Of a stretch of 34,593 nt of DNA, positions 263 to 32,974 are shown in pieces. Below the pieces are notes generated by a model. It saw nothing but the letters and a program-made list of their open reading frames with translations. It had not been told where the DNA came from and did not search any database. This DNA is from Corallococcus llansteffanensis. GTDB taxonomy: Bacteria; Myxococcota; Myxococcia; Myxococcales; Myxococcaceae. The stretch is from positions 1 to 34,593 of the forward strand of contig NZ_RAWB01000029.1 in NCBI RefSeq assembly GCF_003612055.1. The letters run 5' to 3'. The position numbers and the translations under genes were made by a program. The number at the start of each line of letters is the position of its first letter. The stretch's first letter is position 1.

Positions 263-443
263 GGGCAGCCCCTCAGGTGCGTCCAAGATGAATTCGTCTG
301 ACTCTTCTCCGACCACGTCTCCATCGAGCCGCGCCATGGGCGCAATCACAAAGCACCCTGCCAGGGCCGCCCGAATTGCCGCGGGTCGCGCGCTCTGACA
401 GTCTTCACGCGCCGTCAACACTGCTCATGCTCCGAGGCGCATC

Positions 444-3380
444 ATGTCCAGACACGAGAAGGACGCTCCTCCCGACAGCTTCGACTGTGAAGGACAGCCC
501 ACCGAACGCCTCGTCGAGATGTTCGTGCGCATGACCCAGGAGAATCGCATCCGCCTGGGTCAGACTCCCGCCGAGCGCGCCGTGTTCCGCAAGCTGCACG
601 GCGTGGCGCATGGCCACTTCGAAATCCTCCCCGGCGTGGACCGCAAGCTTCGGACGGGCATCTTCGCGCAGGACCGGCTGGAGGCCTGGGTGCGGTTCTC
701 CAGCGACACGTCCCCCACCCTGCCGGACCTGGGCAGCACGCTGGGCGTGGGCATCAAGCTGTTCGGAGTCGCTGGCTCGAACGGGCTGGGCGAGTCGGGC
801 ACCACCGCGGACTTCATCCTGCAGAACTTCCCGCGCTTCTTCGTGCAGGACGCGAAGGCGATGTGTGAGTTCACCTATGCGGGCGTTGTCCTGAAGGACT
901 ATCCCGGCTATCTCAAACAGCATCCCGCCACCCAGGCCGTGCTGGACGCGATGACGGCGCCGCAGGGCAGCGTCCTCACCAGCACCTACTGGGCCATCCT
1001 GCCGTTCAAGCTGGGCAAGGAGGTCGTCAAATACAGACTGGAGCCGGAGACCGCGCCCCAGAACGTGCCGGATGACGCTGATGACTACCTGGCCACGGAC
1101 CTGGCCACCCGGCTGGCGAGGGACGGCTATCGCTTCCGGTTCATGATCCAGCGCCGCACCCACCCGTCCACCATGCCCCTGGACCGGGCCATGGACGACT
1201 GGTCGGAGAAGCAGAGCCCGTTCGTGCAGATCGCCACCCTGGTGCTGCCCCGCCAGGACATCGGTGAGCGCGGGCAGGCCGACTATGGCCAGTCGCTGTC
1301 CTTCAACATCTGGCGCACCCCTCCGGAGAACGCACCGTCCGAGGCGTCCTCCATCGCGGTGGTGCGCAAGGCGGTCTACGCCGCGGGTGCCGCGGCCCGA
1401 CACCGCGCCAACGGTCAGCCCCTGAAGGACCTCCCAGAGCCCCGTCCGGTCGCGCCCAAGCCCAAGGCGCCGGACGAGGGCATCGTGAAGGCGGTCATCT
1501 ACCCGCCCATCGGCATCGCTCGCGTCGGCAGCAGCCCGGACGGGTACTTCATCGGACCCGAGGTGACCGAGCCTCCCGCCCAGGACAAGGGCTTCTACCG
1601 GGATGCGCAGGGGCGGCTGAAGCGGCAGGCGGCGCGCTTCCGCATCTACGGCGTCAACGCGGAGGGGCACATCATTCGGGAGCTGTCGGTGCCGAAGTCG
1701 GGCGCGAAGGTGCGCTGGACCGTGCAGTTGGCGAACACCAAGGCCGCCTGGTACGGCTTCCAGCTGGCGCTCGACATTCCCGAGGCCTCGTCCGCCCCAC
1801 CCACCACGCTGCGCAACGCGGCCGTGGCGGACCGCTCGCGGCTGGCCATCACGCCTGCCACGCAGTCCGTGCAGGGCGCGAAGGCCCGCCCCAAGCGCTT
1901 CGACGGCACCTTCATGGACCTGGAGGTCCACCTGGGGGAGATCCGCACCGACGAGTGCGGGCGGCTGGTGGTGCTGGGCGGTCACGGCGTCTCCCGCTCG
2001 TGCGACGGCACGTATGCCATCACCTTCGCGAACAACGAGGGCTGGCACGACGACGTGTCGGACGGCCCGGTGACCGCCGAGGTGGTGCTGGATGGCAAGC
2101 CGCTGGAGGTCGTCCCCGCCTGGGTGGTCGTGGCGCCCCCGAACTACGGGCCCCAGCGGAAGTCGGTCCGCACGATGTGGGACCTGATGCGCGACGTGGC
2201 CATCCGCGCGGGGACGCTGGCCGCGCCGGCCCGGCCGTCCTTCACCCACGACATCCTTCCCCTCTTCCAGCGCCTGGCGGGGCTGCAATGGGTCAACGCG
2301 GGCTTCGCCGCAGGTTTCGGCTGGAAGGGGATGTTCGACTTCACGGATCCGGAGGTGCTGGCGCGCCTGGGGGACAGCGGCCCGGCGGAGCGGGAGTACC
2401 GGCATGCGGTGGCGAACCAGTTCCGGAACTTCGCCAGGGACTCCTGGTCACCCACGCCGTGGCCCTGGCTGTACGGCGACGCCATGAACATCCCGCCCGC
2501 GCAGACGCCCCGGCAGTACACCGCGCTGACGGACACCCAGCTGGCCATGCTCCAGCAGTGGGCCCTGGGCGAGTTCGTGGCCGACCATGATCCGAACCGC
2601 AAGCCGCCAGCCACGCTCGCCGAGGTGCCGCTGCCGGAACAGGGGGACATGCTCACCCGCGCGGCGCTGGAGTTCTGCCTGGCCGACGCGTTCCACCCCG
2701 GCTGCGAGATGACCTGGCCCATGCGTCAGGCCACGATGTACCTGCAGCCCTTCCGCCTGGCGCACCAGCTCCCCGGCTGGAAGGAGCCGAACCTGGGCGA
2801 GGTGATCACGCTGGACAGCATCACCCTCGCCAACGGCCCGCTCACCGGCCAGCCGCCCGGTGGCCTCACGCGGTGGATGGCCGTCCCCTGGCAGGCGGAC
2901 TCGGCCAGCTGCCGCTCCGGTTACGACACGACCTACGACCCCTATGTCCCGTCCTTCTGGCCCGCGCGGGTCCCCAACGAGGTCCTGACGGAGGAGAACT
3001 ACAGGATCGTCATGGACACGAAGAAGCCGCTGGCCGAGCGCCGTGCCGCCTTCGCCAACCGCGCCGCCTGGATCAACCCGCTGGGGTCGACGAGCTACAC
3101 CGACCAGATCAACAACATGATCCAGCACTTCGACCACCTGGGCGTCGTCGAGGCGAGGAAGGGCCCGACGGACACCGACGCCTTCCCGGCGGTGATCGAG
3201 GTCGAGGACCAGCACAAGCCCATCCAGGACGTCATCCCTCCCGAGGCCCGGGTGAGGCGGCGAGGGACCGCGACGGGGAGCTCGGTGGGGGTGCATCACC
3301 GCGAAGCGCCCTCCGCGGCGAAGGTCGACGTGCGCGGCATCGAGAAGGTGCGCCGCTTCCCGGGCGGCCTGCGGCGCTAG
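444..3380 (+). CDS. Catalase-like domain fused to a LodA/GoxA-type CTQ-dependent amino-acid oxidase
   Basis: This 978-residue protein has two parts. Residues about 10-330 resemble catalase-related haem proteins: RKLHGVAHGHFEI (His52, His56, His58) fits the distal-His region, followed by WVRFSSD, GVGIKLFGV and DFILQNFPRFFV, and it closes with VRKAVYAAGAAARH. Residues about 345-965 resemble LodA/GoxA quinoprotein oxidases, starting at the hallmark YPPIGIARVGSS and continuing with PWLYGDAMN, EFCLADAFHPGCEMTW and FWPARVP. Cys745 and Trp839 sit where this family forms its cysteine tryptophylquinone cofactor. Family members oxidise amino acids such as lysine or glycine and release hydrogen peroxide. 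No signal peptide is visible, which is also usual for LodA. The LodB-type gene needed for cofactor formation follows 8 bases after the stop. The family call is firm; the substrate is unknown, and whether the catalase-like part destroys or uses peroxide is not shown by the sequence. Confidence 0.85.
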   Translation: MSRHEKDAPPDSFDCEGQPTERLVEMFVRMTQENRIRLGQTPAERAVFRKLHGVAHGHFEILPGVDRKLRTGIFAQDRLEAWVRFSSDTSPTLPDLGSTLGVGIKLFGVAGSNGLGESGTTADFILQNFPRFFVQDAKAMCEFTYAGVVLKDYPGYLKQHPATQAVLDAMTAPQGSVLTSTYWAILPFKLGKEVVKYRLEPETAPQNVPDDADDYLATDLATRLARDGYRFRFMIQRRTHPSTMPLDRAMDDWSEKQSPFVQIATLVLPRQDIGERGQADYGQSLSFNIWRTPPENAPSEASSIAVVRKAVYAAGAAARHRANGQPLKDLPEPRPVAPKPKAPDEGIVKAVIYPPIGIARVGSSPDGYFIGPEVTEPPAQDKGFYRDAQGRLKRQAARFRIYGVNAEGHIIRELSVPKSGAKVRWTVQLANTKAAWYGFQLALDIPEASSAPPTTLRNAAVADRSRLAITPATQSVQGAKARPKRFDGTFMDLEVHLGEIRTDECGRLVVLGGHGVSRSCDGTYAITFANNEGWHDDVSDGPVTAEVVLDGKPLEVVPAWVVVAPPNYGPQRKSVRTMWDLMRDVAIRAGTLAAPARPSFTHDILPLFQRLAGLQWVNAGFAAGFGWKGMFDFTDPEVLARLGDSGPAEREYRHAVANQFRNFARDSWSPTPWPWLYGDAMNIPPAQTPRQYTALTDTQLAMLQQWALGEFVADHDPNRKPPATLAEVPLPEQGDMLTRAALEFCLADAFHPGCEMTWPMRQATMYLQPFRLAHQLPGWKEPNLGEVITLDSITLANGPLTGQPPGGLTRWMAVPWQADSASCRSGYDTTYDPYVPSFWPARVPNEVLTEENYRIVMDTKKPLAERRAAFANRAAWINPLGSTSYTDQINNMIQHFDHLGVVEARKGPTDTDAFPAVIEVEDQHKPIQDVIPPEARVRRRGTATGSSVGVHHREAPSAAKVDVRGIEKVRRFPGGLRR

Positions 3381-3388
3381 AGCCCCGG

Positions 3389-4492
3389 ATGCTGCCCGCA
3401 GACGTCGTCATCGTGGGCGCTGGCCCCGCCGGTGCCACTGCCGCGCTGAACCTCGCGCCGTTCCGGCGGGTGTTGCTGGTGGACCGGAGGCCAGAGCCCA
3501 CCGACCGCATCGGTGAGTCCCTGGCCCCGGCCGCCCGGCGCCTCTTGAGCGACATGGGGCTGTGGGCGGACTTCCTCGCGGACGGGCACAGCCCCTGTCA
3601 CGTCGCGCGCAGCCGCTGGGGGACGGAGGTTCCCGGTGAGCAGGACGCGCTCGCCAACCTGGATGGACCGGGCTGGCACCTGGACCGTCGCCGGTTCGAG
3701 GAGCGCTTGCGACGCACGGCCGTGGCACGGGGAGCGGCGTTGCTCGCACCCGCCTCACCCGTGGGACTGGAGCGCGCGGGTGACGGCTGGTGTCTGCGAT
3801 TGGAGCACGGCGGACGGGTGCTGGACGTGGCCACACGGTGGATCATCGATGCTGGAGGCCGGGCGTCGGGACTGCTCAAGCCCTTCGGCGCCGAGCGACG
3901 GGCCCGGGACCGGTTGATCTGTGGATGGCTTCACGGCACGAGGACGGAGGGCAGCACCGGGGGCGGCCTGACGTACACGGAGTCCGCGCCCGACGGCTGG
4001 TGGTACACCGCGCCCTTGCCGGACGGCCGACGGGTGCTCGCATGGCACACCGATGCGGATCTTCCCGCGGCCGAGGCCCTGCGCACGGCGCCCGGCTTGC
4101 TGGGCCAGGCAGCGCGCTCCCCCACCCTGGGCGCGCAGCTCGCGGATACCTGTTTCGATGACACGATCGCGCCCGGAGTCATCACGGCCCACGGCTCGGT
4201 CCTGGCGTCACCCGTGGGCGATAACTGGCTTGCCGTGGGGGATGCGGCGCTGAGCTTCGATCCCCTCTCCTCCCAGGGCCTGTTCAACGCCCTGTTCACC
4301 GGCCTCGCCGCTGCGGAGGCCACGGACCGCGCACTCTCCGGCGACCCGTCCGCGACGAGCGACTACGCCGGGACCCTGGCCGACATCGACGCCGCGTACC
4401 GGCGCAACGTGACGGCCTGGTACGCGCTGGAGCGCCGCTGGCCGGAGCAGGAGTTCTGGCGTCGCCGCCTCACAGGGATGCCCCCCGTGTAG
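3389..4492 (+). CDS. LodB-like FAD-dependent oxidoreductase (cofactor maturation of the LodA-type oxidase)
   Basis: The product is 367 residues. The N-terminus ADVVIVGAGPAGATAALNL holds the dinucleotide-binding glycines (G10, G12, G15), followed by an acidic strand end (LLVDRRPEPTDRIGESLAP). Near residues 280-310, GDNWLAVGDAALSFDPLSSQ is the second FAD motif. The pattern matches the tryptophan-halogenase/geranylgeranyl-reductase flavoprotein group that contains LodB. LodB proteins are required post-translationally for building the CTQ cofactor of LodA, and the adjacent LodA-type gene makes this role likely. The ATG at 3389 is chosen because the Rossmann motif starts right after it; there is no convincing ribosome-binding site, so translation is probably coupled to the upstream gene, whose stop is 8 bases away. 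The open frame continues upstream inside the oxidase gene, but that part looks like shadow sequence. Confidence 0.8.
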   Translation: MLPADVVIVGAGPAGATAALNLAPFRRVLLVDRRPEPTDRIGESLAPAARRLLSDMGLWADFLADGHSPCHVARSRWGTEVPGEQDALANLDGPGWHLDRRRFEERLRRTAVARGAALLAPASPVGLERAGDGWCLRLEHGGRVLDVATRWIIDAGGRASGLLKPFGAERRARDRLICGWLHGTRTEGSTGGGLTYTESAPDGWWYTAPLPDGRRVLAWHTDADLPAAEALRTAPGLLGQAARSPTLGAQLADTCFDDTIAPGVITAHGSVLASPVGDNWLAVGDAALSFDPLSSQGLFNALFTGLAAAEATDRALSGDPSATSDYAGTLADIDAAYRRNVTAWYALERRWPEQEFWRRRLTGMPPV

Positions 4493-4595
4493 GTCCACTT
4501 GAGACAGCTCGCGGATCAGCCTCAGAGGATTTTTCTCGCGCGTTGCCCGGGCACCCGACCCGCTGGTAAGCCGCTGCCCGGTTGTTCACGGCGGG

Positions 4596-4613
4596 CGGAC
4601 GCACTTGCGTCCG
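4596..4613 (+). promoter_or_regulatory. Short perfect inverted repeat in the leader of the kelch gene
   Basis: CGGACGC at 4596-4602 and GCGTCCG at 4607-4613 form a perfect 7-bp stem with a 4-base ACTT loop, ending 29 bases before the chosen ATG at 4643. It may be an operator half-site pair or a leader hairpin; no T-run follows, so it is not a typical terminator. The region 4493-4642 otherwise holds only a ten-base direct repeat, ctcgcggatc, at 4508 and 4621. Confidence 0.3.
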
Positions 4614-4642
4614 TGCCAGCCTCGCGGATCGGAGTTCGTTCG

Positions 4643-7600
4643 ATGCGGTCACAGCACGCTGTCTGGAGCAGGATCCTGGTGTTGGTGGCGGGCGTGAGCC
4701 TTCTGGCGTGCAGTTCGAAGGAGCACCCGACCCCGGGCGATGGCGCCCCCTCGTCCGCGAAGACGCCTCTGGCCGCCGCGCCGGGCTGGGCCCCCACCGT
4801 GTCCATGGCCCGCACGCGCGCGCAACACGGCGCCGTCCTGCTTCCCTCCGGCGAGCTCCTGGTCATCAACGGCGTCAACCGGACCGGGTTCGTGCGCGAG
4901 GCGGAGCTCTACAACCCCGCCACCGGCACCTGGCGCGATGCCGGCGACTCCGGCATCCAGGGCAACGTCACCGAGGCCGTGCTGCTTCCCAACGGCAAGG
5001 TGCTCGCGCTGACCGACGGCTCCACTTCGGGACGGCTCTACGATCCCGCGACGGGCACGTGGACCGCCACGGGCAACATGGCGCAGACCCGCGGGCTCCC
5101 CACCATCACACTGCTGAACTCAGGGCAGGTGCTGGTCGCGGGTGGCACCGGCAGCGGCGGCGTCCGGCTCACCTCCGCGGAGCTGTACGACCCCGCGAGC
5201 AACACGTTCCTCCCCACCGGCGCCATGACCCTGGGCCGGGGCGCGCACTCCGCCACGCTGCTGCGGAACGGGCAGGTGCTCGCGGTGAGCGGCTTCAACC
5301 AGGCGGGTGAGGTCCCCGGCGCCGACCGCTATGACCCCACGACTGGCACCTGGTCCGCCACCGCGCCTGTCCTGGTGCCCCGGCACTACTCCACCAGCAC
5401 GCTGCTCCCAGATGGCCGCGTGCTCGTCGCGGGCGGGTTCACCGCGGGGGGTGTGACCACCGCCTCGGAAATCTATGACCCGGCGACCAACACCTGGACC
5501 GCCACCGGCAGCCTCGCGTTCGCGCGGTCAGGTCATTCAGCCACGCTGCTGCCCGATGGCAGGGTCCTGGCCTCAGGCGGCTCCGATTCCGCGAGGAATC
5601 CGCAGGTCGTCTCGGAGGTCTACAACCCCGCGACCGGCCAGTGGACCCCCGCGGGTTCGATGAACATCGGGCGCGAGAACCACACCGCGACCCTGCTGCC
5701 CTCCGGCAAGGTGCTGGTGGCGGGCGGGTACAGCAGCGCGCCCAGCCTCACCTTCTACGCGGAGACGGAGCTCTACGATCCCGCCGTCAGCCGGTGGTCT
5801 CCCGCCGGGGCCCTGGGCACGCCCCGGACCGACCCCGTGGTGGCGCTGTTGCCCACGGGCAAGGTGCTCGTCGCGGGTGGCCGTACGGGGAGCGGCGCCT
5901 CGTCGACGGCCGTGGAGCTGTATGACCGGACGACGAACGCCTGGGCCTCCGCACTGGCCCTCGCCACGCCGCGCGAGCGCGCCACCGCGACCGTCCTGCC
6001 TTCGGGTCAGGTGCTGGTCGCGGGCGGGCGCAACGGCAGCACGTCGGTGACCGCCGCCGAGCGCTACGACGCGGCCTCCAACACCTGGACCCCCGTTGCG
6101 TCGCTCACCACCCCGCGACACGTCCACACCGCCACGCTCCTTCCCGATGGGACGGTGCTGGTGGTCGGAGGTCAGCGCAACCTGACCGTGCTCAGCGCCG
6201 TGGAGCGCTACACGCCCGGCAACAACACCTGGACCCCGGTGGCCTCCGCCGCCATCCCCCGCGCCGCACATGCCACCGTGCTGCTCCCCGATGGTCGCGT
6301 GCTCATCGTGGGCGGCCATGACAACACCGGCGCGCCACTTGCTTCGGCGGAGCTGTACGACCCCGCGACCAACACCTGGGCCCCCGCGGCGGGCCTCGCC
6401 CAGGCCCGGGAGGAGCTGACGTTGACGCTCCTGCCCTCGGGCCAGGTCCTCGCGACCGGCGGGCTCGCGGGCGTCACGGAGCTTGCGTCCGCGGAGCTCT
6501 ATGACCCCGGCACGAACACCTGGACCGGCGTCGGACCGCTCGCGCAGGAGCGCTGGCACCACACCGCCACGCTGATGCCCTCCGGCAAGGTCCTGGTCGC
6601 GGGAGGCCTGACCTTCGCGAGCGCGTTCAGCGACGTGGCGGAGGTCTACGACCCCATCACCCGCGTCTGGAGCACCGTCAACGCCCCGGCCTCGCGCGGT
6701 GGACTCGTCTCCGTCGCCCTGCCCTCGGGCGAGGTGCTCCTCGCGGGTGGCGACGACACCCGCAACTCCGAGCTGTTCGACGACACCGGCGCCCTCCCCG
6801 CGTGGAGGCCCGTGGTGACCCGTCCGGCCACCCTCGTCCCCGCCTGCCCGACCGTGCTCGAGGGCCTGCTGTTCCGGGGCATCTCCGGCGCGAGCGGAGG
6901 CACCTCCACCGGCGACTCCCCCACCGACTTCCCCCTCGTGCGCCTCCAGGCTGCGGAGGGCGGGCGTCTGCTGACGCTCCCCAGCTCCGACACGTCGTCC
7001 ACGCGCGCGACGGTGACCGTCCCCGTCAGCGTTCCGCTGGGGACCTATGCGCTCACCGTCTTCGCCAACGCCATCCCTGGCGGGCGCATGGTGCAGGTGG
7101 TCGCGAACCAGACGCCCACGGCGATCAACCAGGACGTCGCCGCCGGTCTGGACACGCCCCTGGCCGTCACCCTCACCGCGACCGACCCGGATGTGGGGCA
7201 GGTGTTGACCTGGACCGTGGTCCGCCAGCCGCTGCATGGGACTTTGAGCGGCACGCCGCCCAACCTCACGTACACGCCCGCGCCGGGCTATGTCGGAGCG
7301 GACAGCTTCGACTTCCGCGTCCGGGACTGCGTCCAGGACAGCAACCTGGGCACGGTGAACATCACCGTCACGGCCGGGCCGCCTCCGACCCTCACGTGCC
7401 CCGCGGACGTCACCGCCGAAGCGACGGGCCCGGATGGCGCCGTGGTCACCTACGATCCCGCGGTGCCTGGCCAGGTGGGCACGCCGGTCAGCTACTCGGT
7501 GCCCTCGGGCTCCCGGTTCCCGCTCGGCGCGACGACCGTGACCGCCACCACCGCGGGCGGCGTCCCGGCGTCGTGCTCATTCGTCGTCACGGTGCGGGAC

Positions 7601-7966
7601 ACCACCCCGCCCTCCGTGACGTGCCCGTCGGACCAGACGGCGACCACGGACGGCGCGGGCGCGCAGGTGTCGTTCGAGCCCACGGCCACGGACGCCGTCA
7701 CCGCGACGCCGACCGTCACGTCCTCGCCCGCGTCGGGCAGCGTCTTCGCGCCGGGCTCCACGCGGGTCACCGTTACCGCCACGGATGAGGCCGGCAACTC
7801 CGCGCAGTGCACGTTCCAGGTCGCGGTCCAGGCGGCGGTGGTGTCCATCGCCGGCGGCGGTTGCCAGAGCGCCGGCGGTGATGCGACCTCCGCACTGGCG
7901 CTCCTCGCGGGACTGGCGTCGTGGGCCGGTCTGCGTCGCCGTCGCACCAGCCCCGGGGTTCGCTGA
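4643..7966 (+). CDS. Kelch-repeat surface lipoprotein with Ig-like and HYR domains and a MYXO-CTERM-like tail
   Basis: The product is 1107 residues. The start at 4643 has a GGAG ribosome-binding site 8 bases upstream and gives a lipoprotein signal, SLLAC, with Cys23 as the lipidated residue. Residues about 50-716 carry 14 kelch-type units built around LLPSGKVLVAGG and AELYDPATNTW, enough for two seven-bladed propellers. Residues about 720-820 resemble the E-set domain found after galactose-oxidase-type propellers (SPTDFPLVRLQ). Next come a cadherin-like segment (about 821-911; TPAPGYVGADSFDFRV) and two HYR-type domains (about 912-1066). The end has Cys1074, a short hydrophobic helix and RRRR, the layout of a MYXO-CTERM sorting signal. 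The protein should sit on the cell surface; ligand or partner is unknown. An OmpA-type gene follows directly and is probably co-transcribed. Confidence 0.85.
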   Translation: MRSQHAVWSRILVLVAGVSLLACSSKEHPTPGDGAPSSAKTPLAAAPGWAPTVSMARTRAQHGAVLLPSGELLVINGVNRTGFVREAELYNPATGTWRDAGDSGIQGNVTEAVLLPNGKVLALTDGSTSGRLYDPATGTWTATGNMAQTRGLPTITLLNSGQVLVAGGTGSGGVRLTSAELYDPASNTFLPTGAMTLGRGAHSATLLRNGQVLAVSGFNQAGEVPGADRYDPTTGTWSATAPVLVPRHYSTSTLLPDGRVLVAGGFTAGGVTTASEIYDPATNTWTATGSLAFARSGHSATLLPDGRVLASGGSDSARNPQVVSEVYNPATGQWTPAGSMNIGRENHTATLLPSGKVLVAGGYSSAPSLTFYAETELYDPAVSRWSPAGALGTPRTDPVVALLPTGKVLVAGGRTGSGASSTAVELYDRTTNAWASALALATPRERATATVLPSGQVLVAGGRNGSTSVTAAERYDAASNTWTPVASLTTPRHVHTATLLPDGTVLVVGGQRNLTVLSAVERYTPGNNTWTPVASAAIPRAAHATVLLPDGRVLIVGGHDNTGAPLASAELYDPATNTWAPAAGLAQAREELTLTLLPSGQVLATGGLAGVTELASAELYDPGTNTWTGVGPLAQERWHHTATLMPSGKVLVAGGLTFASAFSDVAEVYDPITRVWSTVNAPASRGGLVSVALPSGEVLLAGGDDTRNSELFDDTGALPAWRPVVTRPATLVPACPTVLEGLLFRGISGASGGTSTGDSPTDFPLVRLQAAEGGRLLTLPSSDTSSTRATVTVPVSVPLGTYALTVFANAIPGGRMVQVVANQTPTAINQDVAAGLDTPLAVTLTATDPDVGQVLTWTVVRQPLHGTLSGTPPNLTYTPAPGYVGADSFDFRVRDCVQDSNLGTVNITVTAGPPPTLTCPADVTAEATGPDGAVVTYDPAVPGQVGTPVSYSVPSGSRFPLGATTVTATTAGGVPASCSFVVTVRDTTPPSVTCPSDQTATTDGAGAQVSFEPTATDAVTATPTVTSSPASGSVFAPGSTRVTVTATDEAGNSAQCTFQVAVQAAVVSIAGGGCQSAGGDATSALALLAGLASWAGLRRRRTSPGVR

Positions 7967-8014
7967 ACCATGCGCTCCGGATCTGAACGTCTCGCACGCT
8001 CCTTCCTTTCCCGA

Positions 8015-9697
8015 ATGGACCTCCCCTTGCGTACACAGGCACAGAGATGGGCGCTGGCCGCGCTGCTGGCCATCGCCGTCGCACCCGCGGCCTTTGGCCA
8101 GACCCTCGCGAGTCCCCTCCGCCCGTTGGACCTGGAGCGCCTGCGCTTCAATCCCGCGGCCACGGACTCGATGCTGGTGGACACCGGCAACGTGCTTCCC
8201 GAGGGCGGCTACCGCCTGCTCCTCATGGTCAACTACGAGCGCGGCATCCTGCTGTTGAAGGGCAGCGATGACGTGGAGCGCTCCATCCTGCACTACCGGA
8301 CCGCGGGCTGGCTCGCCGGCGCGTGGTCTCCCGTGGACCGGTTGGAGTTGTCCGCGCGCGTCCCCGTCATCATCTCCCAGGGCGGACATGGCGCGGAGAC
8401 GCTGGCCGGCGTGACGCCCCCGGACTCCTTCGGGCTGGGGACGCCCGAGCTGGGCGCCCGCTACGCGCTGCTGCGTCGTGAGGACGGAGACCCGGTGTTC
8501 CTCGGCCTGGGCCTGGACATCGGGCTGCCCGGAGGAAGCGCGGACGCGTTCGGCCGGCAGCAGGGCTGGGCCGGGTTCCAGGTAGCGCCCCGCGTGGCCG
8601 TGAGCCGCGAGGTGGGCCCGCTGGCCCTGGGCGCGAGCGCGGGCGTGCGGATCCGCTCCACGGAGGTCGAGCCCGGCCGCGACGTTGGCACGGAGCTGGA
8701 GCAGGGCCTGGTGGTGGCCACGCGCGGCGAAGGGCTGCGCGGCGAGATCGCGCTGGAGGCCGCCGAGTCCCTCGTGGAGTCGGACGTGGCGCTGGAGCTG
8801 CTCGGTGGGCTGCGGCTGCCGGTGGGCATGGGCTTCGAGGCGTTCGCGCTCGCGGGGCATGGCTTCACGGACATCCCGGGCACGCCGTCGTTCCGGCTGG
8901 CCGCGGGCATCGCGTGGGCGAACAAGCCGCCGCCGCGTGAGGACAAGTGCGCGAGCGGCCGAAGCCACACCCCGGAGGAGTGCCCGGATCAGGATGACGA
9001 TGGGGACTCGGTGGCCAACGGGAAGGATCGCTGCCCGCTGGAGGCCGGCTCCGTGGACAACGCGGGCTGCCCGGACAAGGACTCGGACAACGACGGCGTG
9101 GTGGATCGCGAGGACCAGTGCGCCTCGGTCGCGGGGTCCGCTCGCTACCACGGTTGCCCGCCGCCCGACTCGGACGGAGACAGCGTCGCGGACGACGAGG
9201 ACGGCTGCCCGAAGGAGGCAGGCCCCGCGTCGAACCGCGGCTGCCCCGTGCGCGAGGAGCCCAAGCCGGTCGAGCCGAAGCCCGAGGAGCCCAAGCCGGT
9301 CGAGCCGAAGCCCGAGGAGCCCAAGCCCACGGTGGAGGACACGAAGTCGCCGCTGGATCACCGCGTGCAGTTCCCGGTGGGCCAAGCCGAGTTCCAGGAA
9401 GAGGAGCGGCGGCAGCTGGACGCCATCGCGGACTACCTGAAGGCGAATCCGAAGCTCGAGATCCGGATTGAAGGCCACACGGACAACACCGGCCCCGAGG
9501 AGCTCAACCGCACCCTGAGCCAGCAGCGCGCGGACCGCGTGCGTGCGTACCTGATCCAGCGAGGCATCGCGGGTTCACGCCTGGAGGCGAAGGGCTACGG
9601 GCCGACGCGCCCGTTGATGTCCAACGACACGCCCGAAGGCCTGACCGCGAACCGCCGCGTGGAGTTCGTCGTGAAGGGCGGAGAGACGGGGCGCTGA
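8015..9697 (+). CDS. OmpA-family outer-membrane protein with thrombospondin type 3 repeats
   Basis: The product is 560 residues from the ATG at 8015, which gives a compact signal peptide ending near AAFGQ; an ATG at 7970 in the same frame, 3 bases after the kelch stop, would add 15 residues and lengthen the basic part of the signal. Neither has a strong ribosome-binding site. After the signal come about 290 residues with alternating beta strands and glycines, likely a membrane barrel. Then follow calcium-binding thrombospondin type 3 repeats (about 324-412; DQDDDGDSVANGKDRCP, DSDNDGVVDREDQC, DSDGDSVADDEDGCP), a proline-rich EEPKPVEPKP linker, and a C-terminal OmpA peptidoglycan-binding domain (about 447-558; EGHTDNTGPEELN, LSQQRADRV, NRRVEF). 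The protein should tether the outer membrane to the cell wall. Its place directly after a surface kelch protein suggests a joint adhesion or display role, which is inference. Confidence 0.85.
   Translation: MDLPLRTQAQRWALAALLAIAVAPAAFGQTLASPLRPLDLERLRFNPAATDSMLVDTGNVLPEGGYRLLLMVNYERGILLLKGSDDVERSILHYRTAGWLAGAWSPVDRLELSARVPVIISQGGHGAETLAGVTPPDSFGLGTPELGARYALLRREDGDPVFLGLGLDIGLPGGSADAFGRQQGWAGFQVAPRVAVSREVGPLALGASAGVRIRSTEVEPGRDVGTELEQGLVVATRGEGLRGEIALEAAESLVESDVALELLGGLRLPVGMGFEAFALAGHGFTDIPGTPSFRLAAGIAWANKPPPREDKCASGRSHTPEECPDQDDDGDSVANGKDRCPLEAGSVDNAGCPDKDSDNDGVVDREDQCASVAGSARYHGCPPPDSDGDSVADDEDGCPKEAGPASNRGCPVREEPKPVEPKPEEPKPVEPKPEEPKPTVEDTKSPLDHRVQFPVGQAEFQEEERRQLDAIADYLKANPKLEIRIEGHTDNTGPEELNRTLSQQRADRVRAYLIQRGIAGSRLEAKGYGPTRPLMSNDTPEGLTANRRVEFVVKGGETGR
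9254..9325 (+). repeat. 30-bp tandem repeat encoding the EEPKPVEPKP linker
   Basis: Two identical 30-base units (9254-9283 and 9284-9313) are followed by a 12-base partial third. Each unit encodes EEPKPVEPKP. The repeat is in frame and lies in the linker between the thrombospondin repeats and the OmpA domain. Identity at the base level suggests recent slippage, so the linker length may differ among strains. Confidence 0.85.
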
Positions 9698-12209: not shown

Positions 12210-13393
<1,184 letters not shown>

Positions 13394-13576
13394 CCCGTGG
13401 CGCGCGTCGGGAGGCACCCGCTTCCTGGGGACGCCCGCCCGGCCTCCAGGTGGAGAAGCGCCGTTTTCCCTACCTGGGGGCGTGCTCGGGGGCTTGGAAG
13501 CCGGCATTTCCAGGGGCTGGCGGCGGTTACATTGGGCCTTCCGGTACGCCGCCGGGCCTCGATTCACCGCGCGTCT

Positions 13577-13604
13577 TTGGTCGCCGCGCCATTTCCGCTA
13601 CAAG
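13577..13604 (+). promoter_or_regulatory. Candidate promoter of the ABC-F gene
   Basis: TTGGTC (13577-13582) and TACAAG (13599-13604) are 16 bases apart, a weak to fair sigma-70-type pair. The -10 ends 8 bases before the ATG at 13613, implying a very short leader. The remaining divergent region 13380-13576 shows no other clear element. Confidence 0.3.
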
Positions 13605-13612
13605 CCGCCGCC

Positions 13613-15211
13613 ATGTTCAACGTCATCAACGTCTCCAAGGCCTATGGGCCCAAGAAGCTTTTCGAGGAGGTCAACGTCACCTTCTCGCCGGGCCGTCGCT
13701 ACGGCCTGACCGGTCCGAACGGGGCCGGCAAGTCCACGTTCATGAAGATCCTCGCGGCTGACGAGGAGCAGGACATGGGCGAGATCATCCGCCCGCGCAA
13801 GCTGGGCATCCTGCGCCAGGACCACTTCCGCTACGAGAACGACCGCGTCCTGGACGTGGTGCTGATGGGCAACCGCCACTTGTGGGCGGCGATGGACGAG
13901 AAGAACAAGCTGCTCGCCAAGTCGGACATCACCGAGGAGGACGGCAACCGGCTGGGTGAGCTGGAAGGCGTCATCGCGGAAGAGGACGGCTACTCCGCGG
14001 AGAGCGACGCGGCCACGCTGCTGGCGGGCCTTGGCATCGAAGAGGCCTTCCACGAAGAGCCCATGCGCCAGCTCACCGGCGGTCTGAAGCTGCGCGTGTT
14101 GCTCGCGCAGGCGCTGTTCGGCAAGCCGGACGGGCTGCTGCTCGACGAGCCCACGAACAACCTGGACATCGATTCCATCCGCTGGCTGGAGAACTTCCTC
14201 CACATGTACGAGGGCGTGCTGATCACCATCAGCCACGACCGGCACTTCCTGAACTCCATCTGCACGCACATCGCGGACATCGATTACGAGACCATCATCC
14301 AGTACACGGGTGGTTACGACGACATGGTCCGGCAGAAGTCGCAGCTGCGGACCCGGGTGGAGTCGGAGACGGAAGAGAAGAAGAAGAAGATCGCCCAGCT
14401 GCAGGACTTCGTGGCGCGCTTCCACGCCGGCACGCGCGCCTCGCAGGTGCAGAGCCGCATCAAGCAGATCGACAAGCTGAAGACGGAGGACCTGAAGCGC
14501 TCGAACATCGCGCGGCCCTTCATCCGGTTTGATCAGAAGGTGGTCAGCGGCCGGCAGACGCTGATGTTCGAGGGCCTGAAGAAGTCCTACGACGGCGTGC
14601 AGGTCATCAAGCCGTTCACGGGCCTGGTCTGCAAGGGCGAGCGCATCTGCGTCATCGGCCGCAACGCCGTGGGCAAGTCCACGCTGGTGAAGATGCTGGC
14701 CGGGCAGACGGAGCCGGACGCGGGGACCATCACCTGGGGACACCAGGCGTCGGTGGGCTACCTGCCGCAGGACCACCACGGGGTCATCCACAAGGGCACG
14801 ACCTGCTTCGGCTACCTGCGAGAGATCAGCGAGAAGCTGACGAACGAGGAGATCTCCGGCGTGCTGGGCCGGATGCTCTTCTCTGGTGAAGAGCGGATGA
14901 AGAACACGGACACGCTCTCCGGTGGTGAGACGGTGCGCGTGCTCCTGTCGAAGCTGATGATCACGCAGGACAACGTGCTCATCCTGGACGAGCCGACGAA
15001 CCACCTGGACCTGGAGTCCATCGCGGCGCTGGCAGAAGGCCTGTCGAAGTTCGACGGCACGGTCATCTGCGTGACGCACGACCAGGAGCTCATCTCCGAG
15101 GTCGCCACACGCATCTGGAGCCTGGAAGCGGGCAAGGAAGTGCTCGACTTCAACGGCCCCTACTCCGAGTTCCGCGAGAAGCACGCGGACGCGGCGCAGA
15201 AGCGCCGCTAG
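13613..15211 (+). CDS. ABC-F family ATPase (YbiT/EttA-like, ribosome-associated)
   Basis: The product is 532 residues with two nucleotide-binding domains and no membrane segments, the ABC-F layout. Domain 1 has Walker A GPNGAGKST (residues 34-42), signature QLTGGLKLRVLLAQ and Walker B LLLDEPTNNLD. Domain 2 has GRNAVGKST (from residue 349), LSGGETVRVLL and LILDEPTNHLD. The linker between them is helical and charged (ESETEEKKKKIAQLQDF), like the P-site tRNA-interaction motif. ABC-F proteins bind the ribosomal E site and tune translation; some give antibiotic resistance. The sequence style is closest to YbiT. The first signature reads LTGG instead of LSGG, a mild change. The ATG at 13613 is chosen because the family begins at that point; the frame is open further upstream but looks non-coding. 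Confidence 0.88.
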   Translation: MFNVINVSKAYGPKKLFEEVNVTFSPGRRYGLTGPNGAGKSTFMKILAADEEQDMGEIIRPRKLGILRQDHFRYENDRVLDVVLMGNRHLWAAMDEKNKLLAKSDITEEDGNRLGELEGVIAEEDGYSAESDAATLLAGLGIEEAFHEEPMRQLTGGLKLRVLLAQALFGKPDGLLLDEPTNNLDIDSIRWLENFLHMYEGVLITISHDRHFLNSICTHIADIDYETIIQYTGGYDDMVRQKSQLRTRVESETEEKKKKIAQLQDFVARFHAGTRASQVQSRIKQIDKLKTEDLKRSNIARPFIRFDQKVVSGRQTLMFEGLKKSYDGVQVIKPFTGLVCKGERICVIGRNAVGKSTLVKMLAGQTEPDAGTITWGHQASVGYLPQDHHGVIHKGTTCFGYLREISEKLTNEEISGVLGRMLFSGEERMKNTDTLSGGETVRVLLSKLMITQDNVLILDEPTNHLDLESIAALAEGLSKFDGTVICVTHDQELISEVATRIWSLEAGKEVLDFNGPYSEFREKHADAAQKRR

Positions 15212-16519: not shown

Positions 16520-17581
16520 CTACCGCGCCGTGGACTTGCGGCGCATCAGGAACACGCCCAGGCCCACGCCCGCGGCCCACTTCGCCGCCGCCGCGAGAGG
16601 CGTCTTGCTCAGCGGCACCGGCTGCGTCGTGTACGGCGGCACGGGCGGCTTGGGACGGAAGTCGGTGGCCCCCGGCAGATCCGCGCCCATCTCCTCCGCC
16701 TCCGTCTTCGTCACGTTCGCGCCCGGCATGTCCGGATCGCGCTGGCCCGGTGACTTTCCGTCCGGCGACTTGTGCTCGAGGATGCCGTTGATCTCCGCGC
16801 CCAGCAGGATGACCTGCGCGGAGATCCACATCCACAGCAGGAGCACGATGACGCCACCGATGGCGCCATAGTTCACGTCGTACGAGCCGAAGTTCGCCAC
16901 GTACATGGAGAACCCCCACGACGCGGCCACCCAGATGAGCACGCCCACCACCGAGCCCGGCGTGATGAACTTGAACTTCTGCTTCACGTCCGGCAGCACG
17001 TAATACAGCACCGCCCACAGGCACATCATCAGGAACCCCGCCACCGGCAGGCGCAGCCACAAGACGAGGGTTCCCACCGGCTCGCCCAGCTTGTTCGCCA
17101 CCGCCGGCGTGACGACCGCGACGATGGCCGCCAGCACCGCCACCACCGCCGTGGCCAGCGTCGTCAGGAGCGCGATGCCCCGCTTCTTCCAGAACGGGCG
17201 CTTCTCCTCCACGCCATAGACCGTGTTGAGCGCCTCCATCAGCCCCACGATGCCGCCCGAGGCCGCCCAGATCGCGCCGACGCCGCCGATCGTCAGCAGC
17301 CCCACCGGGTTGCTGTTCGCCAGCGCCTCCAGGCGCTCACCGAGGATCTTCGTCACCTCCGCCGGTGCCACCTGCGACAACTGCTTGATCAGCTCCTGCG
17401 CCTGGTGCGGATCAATCAGAACACCCGCCAGGGACACGAGGAACAGCAGGAACGGGAACAGCGCGAGGATGCCCTGGAACGTCAGCGCCCCCGCCACATT
17501 GCCCACGTTGTCCCGCCCCCACTCGGCCTTGAGGGACTTGAAGAACTCCTTCCAACTCATTCCCTTGCCGGGCAAAACCAT
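16520..17581 (-). CDS. YihY/BrkB-family integral membrane protein
   Basis: The product is 353 residues. The start at 17581 is favoured by GGAGGAGG just upstream and by the position of the conserved region; the frame is open farther upstream but reads as shadow. Six hydrophobic segments are visible between about residues 30 and 275, including GALTFQGILALFPFLLFLV, the typical opening of the family, and a last one with LLWMWISAQVILLGAEIN, the family hallmark. BrkB/YihY proteins are inner-membrane proteins of unsettled function. After residue about 285 this protein adds a soluble proline-rich tail and a short final hydrophobic stretch (AAGVGLGVFLMRRK), which is longer than the typical member. It sits 164 bases downstream of rfbC on the same strand but has its own ribosome-binding site and no clear functional link to sugar synthesis. 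Confidence 0.85.
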   Translation of the reverse strand: MVLPGKGMSWKEFFKSLKAEWGRDNVGNVAGALTFQGILALFPFLLFLVSLAGVLIDPHQAQELIKQLSQVAPAEVTKILGERLEALANSNPVGLLTIGGVGAIWAASGGIVGLMEALNTVYGVEEKRPFWKKRGIALLTTLATAVVAVLAAIVAVVTPAVANKLGEPVGTLVLWLRLPVAGFLMMCLWAVLYYVLPDVKQKFKFITPGSVVGVLIWVAASWGFSMYVANFGSYDVNYGAIGGVIVLLLWMWISAQVILLGAEINGILEHKSPDGKSPGQRDPDMPGANVTKTEAEEMGADLPGATDFRPKPPVPPYTTQPVPLSKTPLAAAAKWAAGVGLGVFLMRRKSTAR

Positions 17582-17745
17582 GCCGCCTCCTCCGAGGTGT
17601 GCCGCGACTGCTTCGGAGGAGATTGGGCATTCCATCCCCTGGCTGGCTTCCTCCCTGGAGTTGGTGCTCGCCTCCCTGCCTGCTGACCGCGCACACACCC
17701 GGGGATGGCAAGTCCCCATGCCACGCCTGCCCGGCTGCCCTGAAG

Positions 17746-18291
17746 TCAGAAAACAGGGAGCACGGGCGCGTCCTTCAGCCTCGGCGCCCGCTTGTCCTTC
17801 TCCGACAGCAGCGGCTCGCGCACCGGCCACGGGATGGCCAGGTCTGGATCATTCCAGAGCACGCTCCGCTCGGACTCCGGGGAGTACAGCGCCGTGCACT
17901 TGTAGAAGAAGTCCGCGGAGTCACTCAGCACACAGAAGCCATGCGCGAAGCCCGGGGGGATCCACAGCTGCCACTTGTTCCCCGACGACAGCTCCGCCCC
18001 CATCCACCGGCCGAACGTGGGCGACCCCTTGCGCACGTCCACCACCACGTCCCAGACGGAGCCCGCCAGCACCTGCACCAGCTTCCCCTGCCCGTTCGGC
18101 TCCTGGAAGTGCAGGCCCCGCAGCGTGCCCTTCACGGACCGCGACAGGTTGTCCTGCACGAAGGTGCCGGGGATGCCGGCCTCCGCGTAGCGCTGGGCGT
18201 GGAAGGTCTCCACGAAGAAGCCCCGCGAGTCCCCGAAGACACGGGGCTCCAGCAGGAGGACCTCTGGCAATTCCGTAGGCCGCACCTTCAT
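17746..18291 (-). CDS. rfbC: dTDP-4-dehydrorhamnose 3,5-epimerase
   Basis: The product is 181 residues, the normal size. It performs the third step of dTDP-L-rhamnose synthesis, epimerising C3 and C5 of the 4-keto-6-deoxy sugar. Visible family features are [32 protein letters not shown] (with the catalytic His), [16 protein letters not shown] and [13 protein letters not shown]. The ATG at 18291 overlaps the rfbA stop codon by 4 bases (ATGA), so translation is coupled. It is the last gene of the rfbB-rfbD-rfbA-rfbC operon. The ORF extends upstream of the ATG only as shadow of rfbA. Confidence 0.93.
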
Positions 18292-23501: not shown

Positions 23502-24776
23502 ATGAAGATCGGGTTCCTCGTTGGTGACATCGCCAATATCTCCGGTGGTTCCAACGTCATCCTCGAATACGCCTCACGGCTGCAGGACCTTGGCCATGAG
23601 GTCGTCCTCATCACCCCGGGCCCCGTCAAGCTGACGTATCCGCTGTGGCACCCGCGGCTTGCGGACATCCCGCGGCGGTCGCTCGCGGAGGCCGAAGGCG
23701 AGTCCTTCGACTTCGCGCTGGCCACCTGGTGGATCACCTTCTACGACCTGTGGCGCGTCAACGCCCGGGTGTACGGCTACCTGAACCAGAGCCTGGAGTC
23801 GCGCTTCCACGCGGAGCGCCACTACAAGCTGCTCAACCGGCAGACGTACTCGCTGCCCCTGCTCTTCGTCACCGAGGCGAAGTGGCTGGTGGAGTTCATC
23901 CAGACGCTCCAGCCGGAGGGCAAGACGCTCTACGTGCAGAACGGCCTGTCCCGCGAGCACTTCCCCTGTGTGCAGGCCCCACCCCGGCGCGAAGGCAAGC
24001 TGCGCGTGCTGGTGGAGGGCCCCTGGGGCGTGGGCTTCAAGGGCGTGCCGGAGACGTTCGAGGTGCTGGAGCTGGCGGCCGAGCAGGGCGTCCAGTTCGA
24101 GACCGGGTGGCTGGCGTCGTCGTCCGGCGGGGAGAAGCCCACCGTGGGCGGCCAGCCGGTGCAGGTGCACGAGCGCATCCCCATCAACCAGGTCCATCAG
24201 ATCTACGGGCAGTACGACGTGCTGCTGAAGCTCTCCCGCGTGGAGGGCATGTTCGGCCCGCCGCTGGAGATGTTCTCCCAGGGTGGCACCGCCATCACGT
24301 ACACCGTCACCGGCACCGACGAGTACATGGTGCACGGGCAGAACTCGCTGCTGGTGGAGCCGTACAACCGCCGGCAGATCGTCCAGTTCCTGCAGCTCCT
24401 GAGCACGCAGCCCGCGTACCTCGCGCACCTGCGCGCGAACGCGCTCGCCACCGCGAAGGCGTTCACGGACTGGGAGTCGAGCACGCGCCAGGTGGCCTCC
24501 GGCCTGGAGGCGCTGCACGCGGAGGGCTGGACGAACGCGCACCTGCGCCCCGCCCTGGCCGCGATGTCCACGATGCACGGCCACTGGCTGGATGACGTCT
24601 GGCGCGGGGAGCGGGGCCACTCGTCGCTGCACCCGTACGTGGGGCCGGGCGAACAGGTGCTGCTGGAGCGCTACCGCCAGTTCAAGAAGTCCCGTCCCGT
24701 CCGCGCGCTGCAGAAGCTGGTGTCCGACGACTTCAAGAAGTCCCTCCGCGCGCGCCTCACGCGAGTCCTGTCATGA
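23502..24776 (+). CDS. GT4-type glycosyltransferase
   Basis: The product is 424 residues. MKIGFLVGDIANISGGSNVI is the typical start of a GT-B glycosyltransferase with a glycine-rich acceptor-side loop. The second domain begins near LRVLVEGPWGVGFKGV and contains LSRVEGMFGPPLEMFSQGG, with the E-x7-E pair Glu248/Glu256, then YTVTGTDEYMVHGQNSLLVEP, normal for donor binding in family GT4. The last about 50 residues are basic (FKKSRPVRALQK, FKKSLRARLTRVLS) and could sit on the inner face of the membrane. The stop overlaps the next start by 4 bases (ATGA). Sugar and linkage cannot be read from the sequence. Confidence 0.82.
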   Translation: MKIGFLVGDIANISGGSNVILEYASRLQDLGHEVVLITPGPVKLTYPLWHPRLADIPRRSLAEAEGESFDFALATWWITFYDLWRVNARVYGYLNQSLESRFHAERHYKLLNRQTYSLPLLFVTEAKWLVEFIQTLQPEGKTLYVQNGLSREHFPCVQAPPRREGKLRVLVEGPWGVGFKGVPETFEVLELAAEQGVQFETGWLASSSGGEKPTVGGQPVQVHERIPINQVHQIYGQYDVLLKLSRVEGMFGPPLEMFSQGGTAITYTVTGTDEYMVHGQNSLLVEPYNRRQIVQFLQLLSTQPAYLAHLRANALATAKAFTDWESSTRQVASGLEALHAEGWTNAHLRPALAAMSTMHGHWLDDVWRGERGHSSLHPYVGPGEQVLLERYRQFKKSRPVRALQKLVSDDFKKSLRARLTRVLS

Positions 24777-30729: not shown

Positions 30730-32076
30730 TCAGGAGGCCGCGGCATGCTTGGGCACGGAGACGGCCTGGACGGGGGCGGCCGGAGCCTCCTCCACCACCC
30801 AGGCATGCTCCGGCCGGAAGACACCCCGGTCGTCATGCTCGGTCGACACGGAGAAGGAGCAGCGCGCTTCGCGCCCCGCCTCCGGGTTCGCGTTGTTGCC
30901 CGTCTTCAGCTCCACGCTCAGCACGTAGGCGCCCCCCAGGAGCCCCACGCGAGGCAGCACGAAGCGCAGCCGGCCCTGCGGCGGCAGCGGCGTCGGCAGC
31001 GGCACCCGGTCCGTCCGGGTGCTCGTCGCGTACAGCACCGGCCCGTCCGCGGACGCGAGCGTGAGGACGAACTCCACGTCCGCCATGGCCTCGCGGGCCA
31101 CGTAGTCGATGCACACCTCCGCCCGCGTCTCCGGGGCGATGGTGCCCAGCTCCTCGCCGCGCGGGCCCGTCAGCCACACCCGGGTCACCGCGACCTGGGG
31201 CGCGGGCTTCGGCGCGTCCGTCACGACGGGCCCTTCCGGCAGGCCGGGCAGCGCCCCGCCCCCTGCCGTCAGCGCGGGCGGGGTGAACACGGTGGAGCGC
31301 GCCTCCGCGAGCGACACCGCCTGCCGGTAGTCGGCGGCGATCTCCGCGGGGGTGCCCATGCGACGGATGCGCCCGCCGTCCAGCCACGCCGCCTGATCAC
31401 ACCACCGCTCCACGGTGGACATGTCGTGCGTGACGAGGACGATGGTCTTCCCCAGGCGCTTGAACTCCGTCATCTTCGCCATGCTCTTCTTGCTGAAGTG
31501 CTCGTCTCCGACGGCGAGGATCTCATCGATGATGAGGATGTCCGGGTCCACGTGCGTGGCCACGGAGAACGCCAGGCGCATGTACATGCCGCTGGAGTAC
31601 GTGCGCACCGGCTCGTCGATGAACTCCCCCAGCTCGCTGAACGCGATGATGGCGTCCATCTTCGCGCGCACCTCGGTGCGGGACATCCCGAGGATGATGC
31701 CGTTGATGAGGATGTTCTCCCGGCCGGAGAAGTCCGGGTGGAAGCCCGCGCCCAGGTCCAGGAGCGCGGAGATGCGCCCGTTCACCGTGATGCTGCCGGA
31801 GGTGGGCGTGTAGATGCCGGTGATGAGCTTCAGCAGCGTGCTCTTGCCGGAGCCGTTGCGCCCCAGGATGGCCACCGTCTGGCCCTTGGGGATGCGCAGG
31901 TTGACGCCCCGGAGCGACTCGATGAAGCGCCCCTGTTGGTTGGACGTGCGGTTGCCGCGCAGCCAGCGCACGAGCTCCGACTTGAACGTGGTGTATTCCC
32001 CCCGGATGGTCCGCTTCCGGAAGTTCTTCACCACGTCCTGGATGACGATGGCGTCCTCGGTCGGTGAATTGGCCAT
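30730..32076 (-). CDS. wzt: O-antigen/polysaccharide ABC exporter ATPase with a carbohydrate-binding C-terminal domain
   Basis: The product is 448 residues. The N-terminal part is an ABC ATPase: Walker A GRNGSGKST (residues 72-80), signature SSGMYMR (161-167), Walker B ILIIDEILAVGDEHF (180 on), and NILINGIILGMSR, typical of Wzt/TagH proteins. Residues about 290-448 form a beta-rich extension like the Wzt C-terminal domain, which in other bacteria recognises the modified end of the finished glycan before export. The ATG at 32076 touches the Wzm stop codon (TAG-ATG), so the two are coupled. The C-domain usually defines glycan specificity, so the exported polymer probably bears a terminal cap. 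Confidence 0.9.
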   Translation of the reverse strand: MANSPTEDAIVIQDVVKNFRKRTIRGEYTTFKSELVRWLRGNRTSNQQGRFIESLRGVNLRIPKGQTVAILGRNGSGKSTLLKLITGIYTPTSGSITVNGRISALLDLGAGFHPDFSGRENILINGIILGMSRTEVRAKMDAIIAFSELGEFIDEPVRTYSSGMYMRLAFSVATHVDPDILIIDEILAVGDEHFSKKSMAKMTEFKRLGKTIVLVTHDMSTVERWCDQAAWLDGGRIRRMGTPAEIAADYRQAVSLAEARSTVFTPPALTAGGGALPGLPEGPVVTDAPKPAPQVAVTRVWLTGPRGEELGTIAPETRAEVCIDYVAREAMADVEFVLTLASADGPVLYATSTRTDRVPLPTPLPPQGRLRFVLPRVGLLGGAYVLSVELKTGNNANPEAGREARCSFSVSTEHDDRGVFRPEHAWVVEEAPAAPVQAVSVPKHAAAS

Positions 32077-32856: not shown

Positions 32857-32974
32857 GCGCCGGTATCCATACCGCAAAGGGTCGGCCGGAGGCGAATGAC
32901 CCGGAAAACAGCGGGCCGCCCGTCCCTCGCGCGCCCGCCTGCTGTCGCGAGCCAATCCCGGAGCCAAGGGGAGA

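Follow-up and report, generated by a model that had tools for sequence, protein, structure and literature searches.

The window analysed here is the whole of contig NZ_RAWB01000029.1 (34,593 bases), part of the draft genome of Corallococcus llansteffanensis (10.5 Mb in 1,244 contigs). One gene on it, at 444..3380 of the + strand, encodes a 978-residue protein in which a catalase-fold haem domain precedes a cysteine tryptophylquinone (CTQ) oxidase of the LodA/GoxA type, and a gene for a LodB-type maturase follows. The evidence tips modestly toward an ordinary group III LodA-like quinoprotein whose N-terminal, y4iL-type haem domain has been remodelled, is not a catalase and acts on peroxide made in cis. 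Its main support is a phenylalanine, Phe48, at the position of the catalase distal histidine. The fusion itself has been known since 2015, and the window protein is a further group III case; new here are the residue-level result for the haem pocket, the forms in which the two halves are separate genes, and a corrected CTQ cysteine.

The fused protein, its haem pocket and its cofactor

Profile-to-PDB search, modelling and structural alignment place the N-terminal catalase-fold domain at residues about 17–330 (492..1433, +). A proline-rich linker, read from the translation, joins it at residues about 331–345 (1434..1478, +) to a complete LodA/GoxA-type oxidase portion (residues about 348–926), in which Pfam finds LodA_N (PF17990, residues 353–563, 1500..2132, +; 276.8 bits against a cut-off of 26.3, E 1.9e-82) and LodA_C (PF18417, residues 686–839, 2499..2960, +; 144.8 bits against 25, E 2.1e-42). 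The maturase gene (lodB/goxB-type, flavin adenine dinucleotide-dependent, 367 residues) lies at 3389..4492 on the same strand, starting 8 bp past the oxidase stop; its best two NCBIfam matches are the GoxB (244.7 bits) and LodB (202.9 bits) maturases, both below the equivalog cut-off of 400. A LodB-type frame lies downstream in 82 of the 82 fused loci with room for one (79 found by a distance rule and three missed by it; five further loci are too short to tell). The single frame, the catalase-related haem fold of the first half, the LodA/GoxA-type second half and the LodB partner had all been proposed in a first-pass annotation of the bare sequence, and each was borne out.

Three same-genus genomes carry the lod operon (L135, L136 and the contig pair L137/L138), at 90–91% DNA identity, and same-genus proteins are 87–92% identical to the window protein. 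We rejected a chance or artefactual origin of the fusion, since the frame is uninterrupted, the operon is conserved and the same architecture occurs in six phyla. Inspected by eye, the N-terminus of the fused protein shows no signal for export, and the sequence thus gives no support to a secreted antibacterial role.

Pfam Catalase (PF00199) scored 12 bits against the N-terminal domain (gathering score 25, E 0.11), a sub-threshold hint, and phmmer with this domain alone returned a single chance-level match from the PDB (E 0.48). A 15-sequence profile (A2) searched against the PDB found the small catalase-related protein 3e4w as its best match (E 3.3e-25), with ordinary catalases next. A model of residues 1–334, built from 41 sequences, had a predicted local distance difference test score (pLDDT) of 92.3 and a predicted template modelling score (pTM) of 0.90. 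Its best structural match was 3e4y (Z 28.0, 3.0 Å over 280 residues); it also matched human catalase (Z 27.0, 2.6 Å, 275 residues), catalases overall (Z 26.1–27.5), the coral allene oxide synthase (AOS) 1u5u (Z 26.6, 3.4 Å, 283 residues) and the AOS-lipoxygenase fusion 3dy5 (Z 26.7). As modelled, the N-terminal domain is a catalase fold. The Mycobacterium avium subsp. paratuberculosis catalase-related protein of 3e4w/3e4y, presumably MAP2744c, has the same compact catalase fold but carries an R-x-x-H-x-K distal histidine where the window protein has Phe48. Assignment to the y4iL type (CDD cd08152) follows passages of PMC4417212 for the fused family and, beyond these, the relatives recovered here.

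The pocket census covered 89 fused rows, six stand-alone rows linked to LodA or sister to such proteins (L145, L148 and L199, which adjoin lodA; L228, next to a LodA remnant; and L008 and L170, at other sites in their genomes), together with 30 other relatives; L049 lacks the stretch around Phe48, which leaves 88 readable fused rows, and three rows repeat a genome, which leaves 85 distinct. The haem residues of coral AOS, said in the relevant passages of PMC5617202 to be identical to those of catalase, are R64, R102 and R360, with H67, T66 and N137 on the distal side and Y353 proximal. Their counterparts in the window protein by register or alignment are R45, R84, R319, F48, V47, N128 and Y312, all being kept save the distal histidine and the threonine.

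Phe48 (585..587, +) occupies the canonical catalase distal histidine position (Proteus mirabilis His54, coral AOS His67 and human catalase His75). The ungapped R-x-x-[F/H]-x-K register sets it there, and the profile alignment puts the R-x-x-H-x-K histidine of both 3e4w and bovine catalase on the Phe48 column; for 3hb6 the profile range sets column 43 on residue 46, hence column 51, that of Phe48, on residue 54. The structural ranges agree, provided that residues 41–48 align ungapped: 41 falls on 47 of P. mirabilis 1h7k, hence 48 on 54, and on 68 of human 1f4j, hence 48 on 75. Position 48 is phenylalanine in 88/88 readable fused rows and in all six linked or sister rows, as against histidine in 27 of 29 readable other relatives (the remaining two have one glycine and one asparagine). 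The same change has been engineered, going by the title of PDB entry 3hb6, "Inactive mutant H54F of Proteus mirabilis catalase." The glycine row, L009 (genome G029), is a stand-alone copy inside the LodA-linked tree branch, with Asp at 312 and thus a decayed haem site; counted with it, the branch has phenylalanine in 94 of 95 readable rows.

A histidine does stand nearby. His52 (597..599, +) is present in 87 of the 88 readable fused rows (Asp in L100) and in 19 of 29 other relatives; the linked or sister rows have Gln in five cases and His in one. We rejected it as the aligned distal histidine, since stand-alone relatives show the ungapped R-x-x-H-x-K register, and, as 19 of the 27 relatives with the canonical histidine have it as well, it did not arise as a replacement. 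Elsewhere the site is strongly conserved. Arg84 and Ser86 (693..701, +), both catalase haem-site positions, are each found in 88/88 readable fused rows, as are Phe132 and Phe133. On the distal side lie Gln127 and Asn128 (822..827, +), the latter at the catalase distal Asn: position 127 is Gln in every readable fused row (88/88), in every linked or sister row (6/6) and in 0 of 30 other relatives, and position 128 is Asn in 86/88 (Ala in L030 and L031), 6/6 and 19/30, respectively. The proximal ligand motif Arg308-x3-Tyr312 ... Arg319 (1365..1400, +) is present in 89/89 fused rows, with Tyr312 also in 6/6 linked or sister rows and 28/30 other relatives.

The oxidase half resembles GoxA of Pseudoalteromonas luteoviolacea (6byw, 6vmw) and LodA of Marinomonas mediterranea (2ymw, 3weu) in its C-terminal fold, its CTQ Cys/Trp/Asp residues and its maturase; it differs in having the extra N-terminal domain and in scoring below both NCBIfam cut-offs (GoxA 438.5 bits against 750, LodA 173.7 against 600, for the fused protein). 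By these scores it is neither LodA nor GoxA in the strict sense. The GoxA fold is borne out by a model of the entire chain (the full-length model; Z 25.7 to 6vmw over 514 residues). Structural comparison, suggested earlier as a check on both halves, agrees with the catalase-related and the GoxA-like assignments.

For the cofactor, the first-pass annotation had named Cys745 and Trp839. The tryptophan stands, and the cysteine does not: Cys745 is Cys in 88/89 fused rows but in 34 of 58 other LodA-like rows, and we rejected it. Asp819 and Cys823 (2898..2912, +) and Trp839 (2958..2960, +) are invariant in all 147 aligned LodA-like rows (89 fused, 58 not), and phmmer against the GoxA chain aligns them with positions 678, 682 and 697. 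Asp678 of GoxA is the conserved aspartate near the cofactor, according to passages of PMC7876137. The CTQ residues of LodA are given as C516 and W581 in the passages of PMC4417212, and a longer Cys-to-Trp stretch in the distant Pseudoalteromonas relative L251 than in the window protein can account for that differing spacing. Residues 813–844 of the full-length model, which include the CTQ part, are of low confidence, so the assignment rests on sequence; the predicted CTQ pair is Cys823-Trp839. Formation of CTQ, amine oxidation and peroxide release by this half would be expected from what is known of the family.

Distribution and history of the fusion

Table 3 of Campillo-Brocal et al. (2015; PMC4417212) lists 21 LodA-like proteins with pfam00199 and also cd08152 (y4iL), all of group III, and states that none had been characterised to the authors' knowledge. 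These proteins have the same two domains in the same order as the window protein and are 963–1072 residues long; the table includes no myxobacterium, and the passages concerned do not mention a missing distal histidine. Our open-access searches, which cover few subscription journals, found neither a report of the missing histidine nor a characterised group III fusion. Two of the table's members, AZOLI_p50417 and AZL_e04100, recognised by their plasmid record and length, have Phe48, His52, Tyr312, Cys823 and Trp839 in common with the window protein, as does the L074 protein from a listed strain, Tenacibaculum ovolyticum DSM 18103. Our own trees place the window protein with other fused rows, those of Azospirillum and Tenacibaculum among them.

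The database relatives comprise the best 80 of 248 confirmed, and the loci were chosen with a full-length query, so they give no frequency. Both domains are in one frame in 79 of these best 80, L046 being cut at a contig end, and Pseudomonadota or Bacteroidota make up the majority of the named loci. Fused rows span six phyla (Pseudomonadota, Bacteroidota, Actinomycetota, Cyanobacteriota, Bacillota and Myxococcota), the cyanobacterial and Bacillota cases being metagenome-assembled genomes. Within the genus, 3/15 genomes besides the window's own have a match that covers nearly all of the haem domain at >90% identity. The idea that the fusion is special to a predatory myxobacterium, raised at first reading, does not survive its publication in 2015 (PMC4417212) and its wide occurrence, and we rejected the fusion as a myxobacterial or predation trait.

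Of 195 genomes from the phylum of the window, 38 match PF17990, and the loci fetched from these 38 include the fused form in G000, G007, G015, G057, G134 and G135, and in G013 provided that its two contig ends belong together. Other phyla were sampled around central genomes that have the fusion; counting the central genome each time, genomes with an oxidase match carry the fused form in 2 of 13 cases around G195 (Neorhizobium; 398 genomes, among which G537 additionally has a linked form and the weak match G490 was left uninspected), in 6 of 8 around G200 (Taibaiella; 296 genomes) and in 1 of 3 around G203 (Catenuloplanes; 296 genomes).

The two halves also occur as separate genes. G126 and G132 have a gene for the catalase-like protein directly upstream of lodA; at the G126 locus L148 (4067–7075, −) the catalase-like and LodA-like frames are in phase, and just one stop codon separates them. 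In G537 (L199, 7692–9605, +) a catalase-fold gene with about 290 extra C-terminal residues lies downstream of lodA-lodB on the same strand; a Pfam search with the complete frame gave no match at E 0.01. The oxidases of G022 and G043 are sister to that of G126, and in these two genomes the catalase-like gene lies away from lodA. All these separate-gene forms keep Phe48, and all save that of G537 have Gln52. G126 also has, at L228, a second catalase-like gene next to a LodA remnant of 73 residues that shares 67% identity with the window oxidase. This locus is also the exception in a search for haem-domain remnants beside unfused relatives, which found none at E 0.01 in 16 of 17 loci.

Fused copies group in the trees, with the unfused L196, L198, L216, L217, L134, L219, L221 and L218 among or next to them. 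The oxidase tree, a quick tree that carries a long-branch warning, has six changes of the "fused" label, at least four of them forced by well-supported branches. In the haem-domain tree (81 rows, with 46 of the 89 fused ones retained), fused and linked copies form one 53-row set that includes the decayed L009, with a support of 99 in the Shimodaira–Hasegawa-like approximate likelihood ratio test (SH-aLRT); an approximately unbiased test did not reject a clade of the fused and linked rows without L009 (p 0.258). Many independent origins of the fusion are disfavoured by this single set, and the best fit, short of proof, is a single ancient association that was lost or split several times. For three same-genus pairs, the ratio of nonsynonymous to synonymous substitution rates (dN/dS) is 0.23–0.31 in the haem domain and 0.15–0.26 in the oxidase, slightly higher in the haem domain for each pair; purifying selection thus acts on the haem domain about as it does on the oxidase. 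That the two have stayed together so long, in some cases as neighbouring genes, argues for a joint function, and the losses of the haem domain imply that the oxidase can do without it.

Possible roles of the haem domain

In the mechanism that we favour, the CTQ half would oxidise a primary amine or amino acid and release peroxide. The N-terminal half would bind haem without being a true catalase and would consume the peroxide of its neighbour in a reaction like that of a peroxidase or peroxygenase, in a remodelled pocket where His52 may have a new role. Use of the peroxide as a co-substrate, the other option offered in the first-pass annotation, is thus a candidate role. Peroxide release by a CTQ oxidase is the firmer of these steps, and peroxide use on a substrate by the haem half the weaker. 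Protection as a catalase is probably not the job of the first half, given the replacement of the distal histidine by Phe48, which disfavours ordinary-catalase self-protection and coral AOS chemistry alike. Among the marks of a monofunctional haem catalase, the fold and the proximal R-x3-Y are present, the Pfam score falls short of the gathering score and the distal histidine is absent.

Several points weigh against this reading. Haem binding by the N-terminal half is predicted from its residues, and the chemistry of both halves is proposed from sequence and model. The "linked or sister" grouping was defined after the sequences had been seen. The branch is not uniform, judging by L009 with its Gly48 and without the proximal tyrosine. 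Close unfused relatives that have a LodB gene (L196, L198, L216 and L217) are without the catalase-fold domain, and the whole genomes of L196 and L198 gave no haem-domain match, so some lineages can dispense with the domain.

If the reading is true and peroxide made in cis oxidises a substrate, the fused proteins would be self-fuelled peroxygenases, relevant to biocatalysis and to the role of group III LodA-like proteins. The census predicts that group III "catalase" domains should bind haem yet not behave as catalases, and we caution against annotating these N-terminal domains as self-protecting catalases. A more specific proposal, possible but on the unlikely side, is that the LodA-linked branch is a new haem enzyme in which His changed to Phe once in the common ancestor. 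The result would be an oxygenase or peroxidase that has a hydrophobic pocket and runs on peroxide, supplied by the CTQ oxidase half of the protein itself or, in a few genomes, by the product of a neighbouring gene.

An unlikely alternative to a peroxide-using enzyme is a non-catalytic haem or structural domain, its fold kept for assembly, stability, haem-based sensing or substrate guidance with no turnover. Loss of the distal histidine, absence of the domain from several close relatives and the decayed site of the branch member L009 would all suit such a domain, and the proximal residues alone may suffice for holding haem. Purifying selection speaks against it, and so do Gln127, Phe132 and Phe133 (88/88 each), Asn128 (86/88) and His52 (87/88), which suggest a specific distal-side pocket, not drift.

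Self-protection, one of the roles suggested in the first-pass annotation, would have the N-terminal domain destroy the CTQ-made peroxide, with His52 replacing the missing distal histidine. The catalase fold, the other haem-site residues, the near-invariance of His52 in fused rows and a peroxide source on the same chain are in keeping with this; we nevertheless consider it distinctly unlikely, since His52 lies four residues off the canonical position and co-occurs with the canonical histidine in most relatives that keep the latter, Gln52 takes its place in 5 of 6 LodA-linked or sister stand-alone proteins, and the H54F catalase 3hb6 is, by its title, inactive.

CTQ enzymes with haem partners exist (compare passages of PMC7876137), and the haem could be an electron-transfer partner that accepts electrons from reduced CTQ or aids CTQ formation. 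This is very improbable here, given that unfused close relatives with LodB are without the domain, which is therefore probably unneeded for CTQ maturation. In quinohaemoprotein amine dehydrogenase, the model for such a role, haem subunits take electrons from reduced CTQ; LodA and GoxA, however, are working oxidases without a haem domain, and Tyr-ligated haems have low potentials.

The coral analogy drawn at first reading, AOS chemistry on a lipid hydroperoxide, is scarcely credible despite the shared fold (Z 26.6 to 1u5u, 26.7 to 3dy5) and the shared order in 3dy5 of a catalase-fold haem domain ahead of a peroxide-producing oxidase: the oxidase half of 3dy5 is unrelated, the partner here being LodA-type and no lipoxygenase, and the window protein keeps N128 and Y312 but by register has V47 for T66 and Phe48 for His67, the residue involved in starting hydroperoxide cleavage according to passages of PMC5617202.

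Neighbouring genes and other LodA fusions

Directly after lodB, a gene at 4499–7966 (+) encodes a Kelch-repeat protein with galactose-oxidase-type central motifs and with HYR and bacterial immunoglobulin domains. In L135 this gene likewise adjoins the lod operon, with a DNA identity of about 80%, and in L136 and L137 the matching stretches lie 2–2.3 kb further off. Upstream, the window stretches 1–266 and 364–4468 are separated by about 0.1 kb, compared with about 1.8, 2.5 and 6.2 kb in L135, L136 and L138, so a segment was either lost in the window or gained in those loci. The contig continues with genes for an OmpA-family protein (7970–9697, +), a tRNA-guanine transglycosylase (12210–13379, −), an ATPase with two ATP-binding cassette (ABC) domains (13379–15211, +), a BrkB-type membrane protein (16520–17830, −), a glycosyltransferase (23502–24776, +) and an ABC ATPase with a Wzt_C domain (30730–32967, −) that adjoins an ABC-2 membrane protein, as in O-antigen exporters.

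LodA-like proteins with other partners also appeared among the loci. L224, on a plasmid of Paraburkholderia caribensis, has a C-terminal Haem_oxygenas_2 domain, a domain that passages of PMC4417212 place at the N-terminus of LodA fusions. L212 ends in a Vgb-lyase-like propeller (below the Pfam cut-off), and L142 in a DUF569 beta-trefoil.

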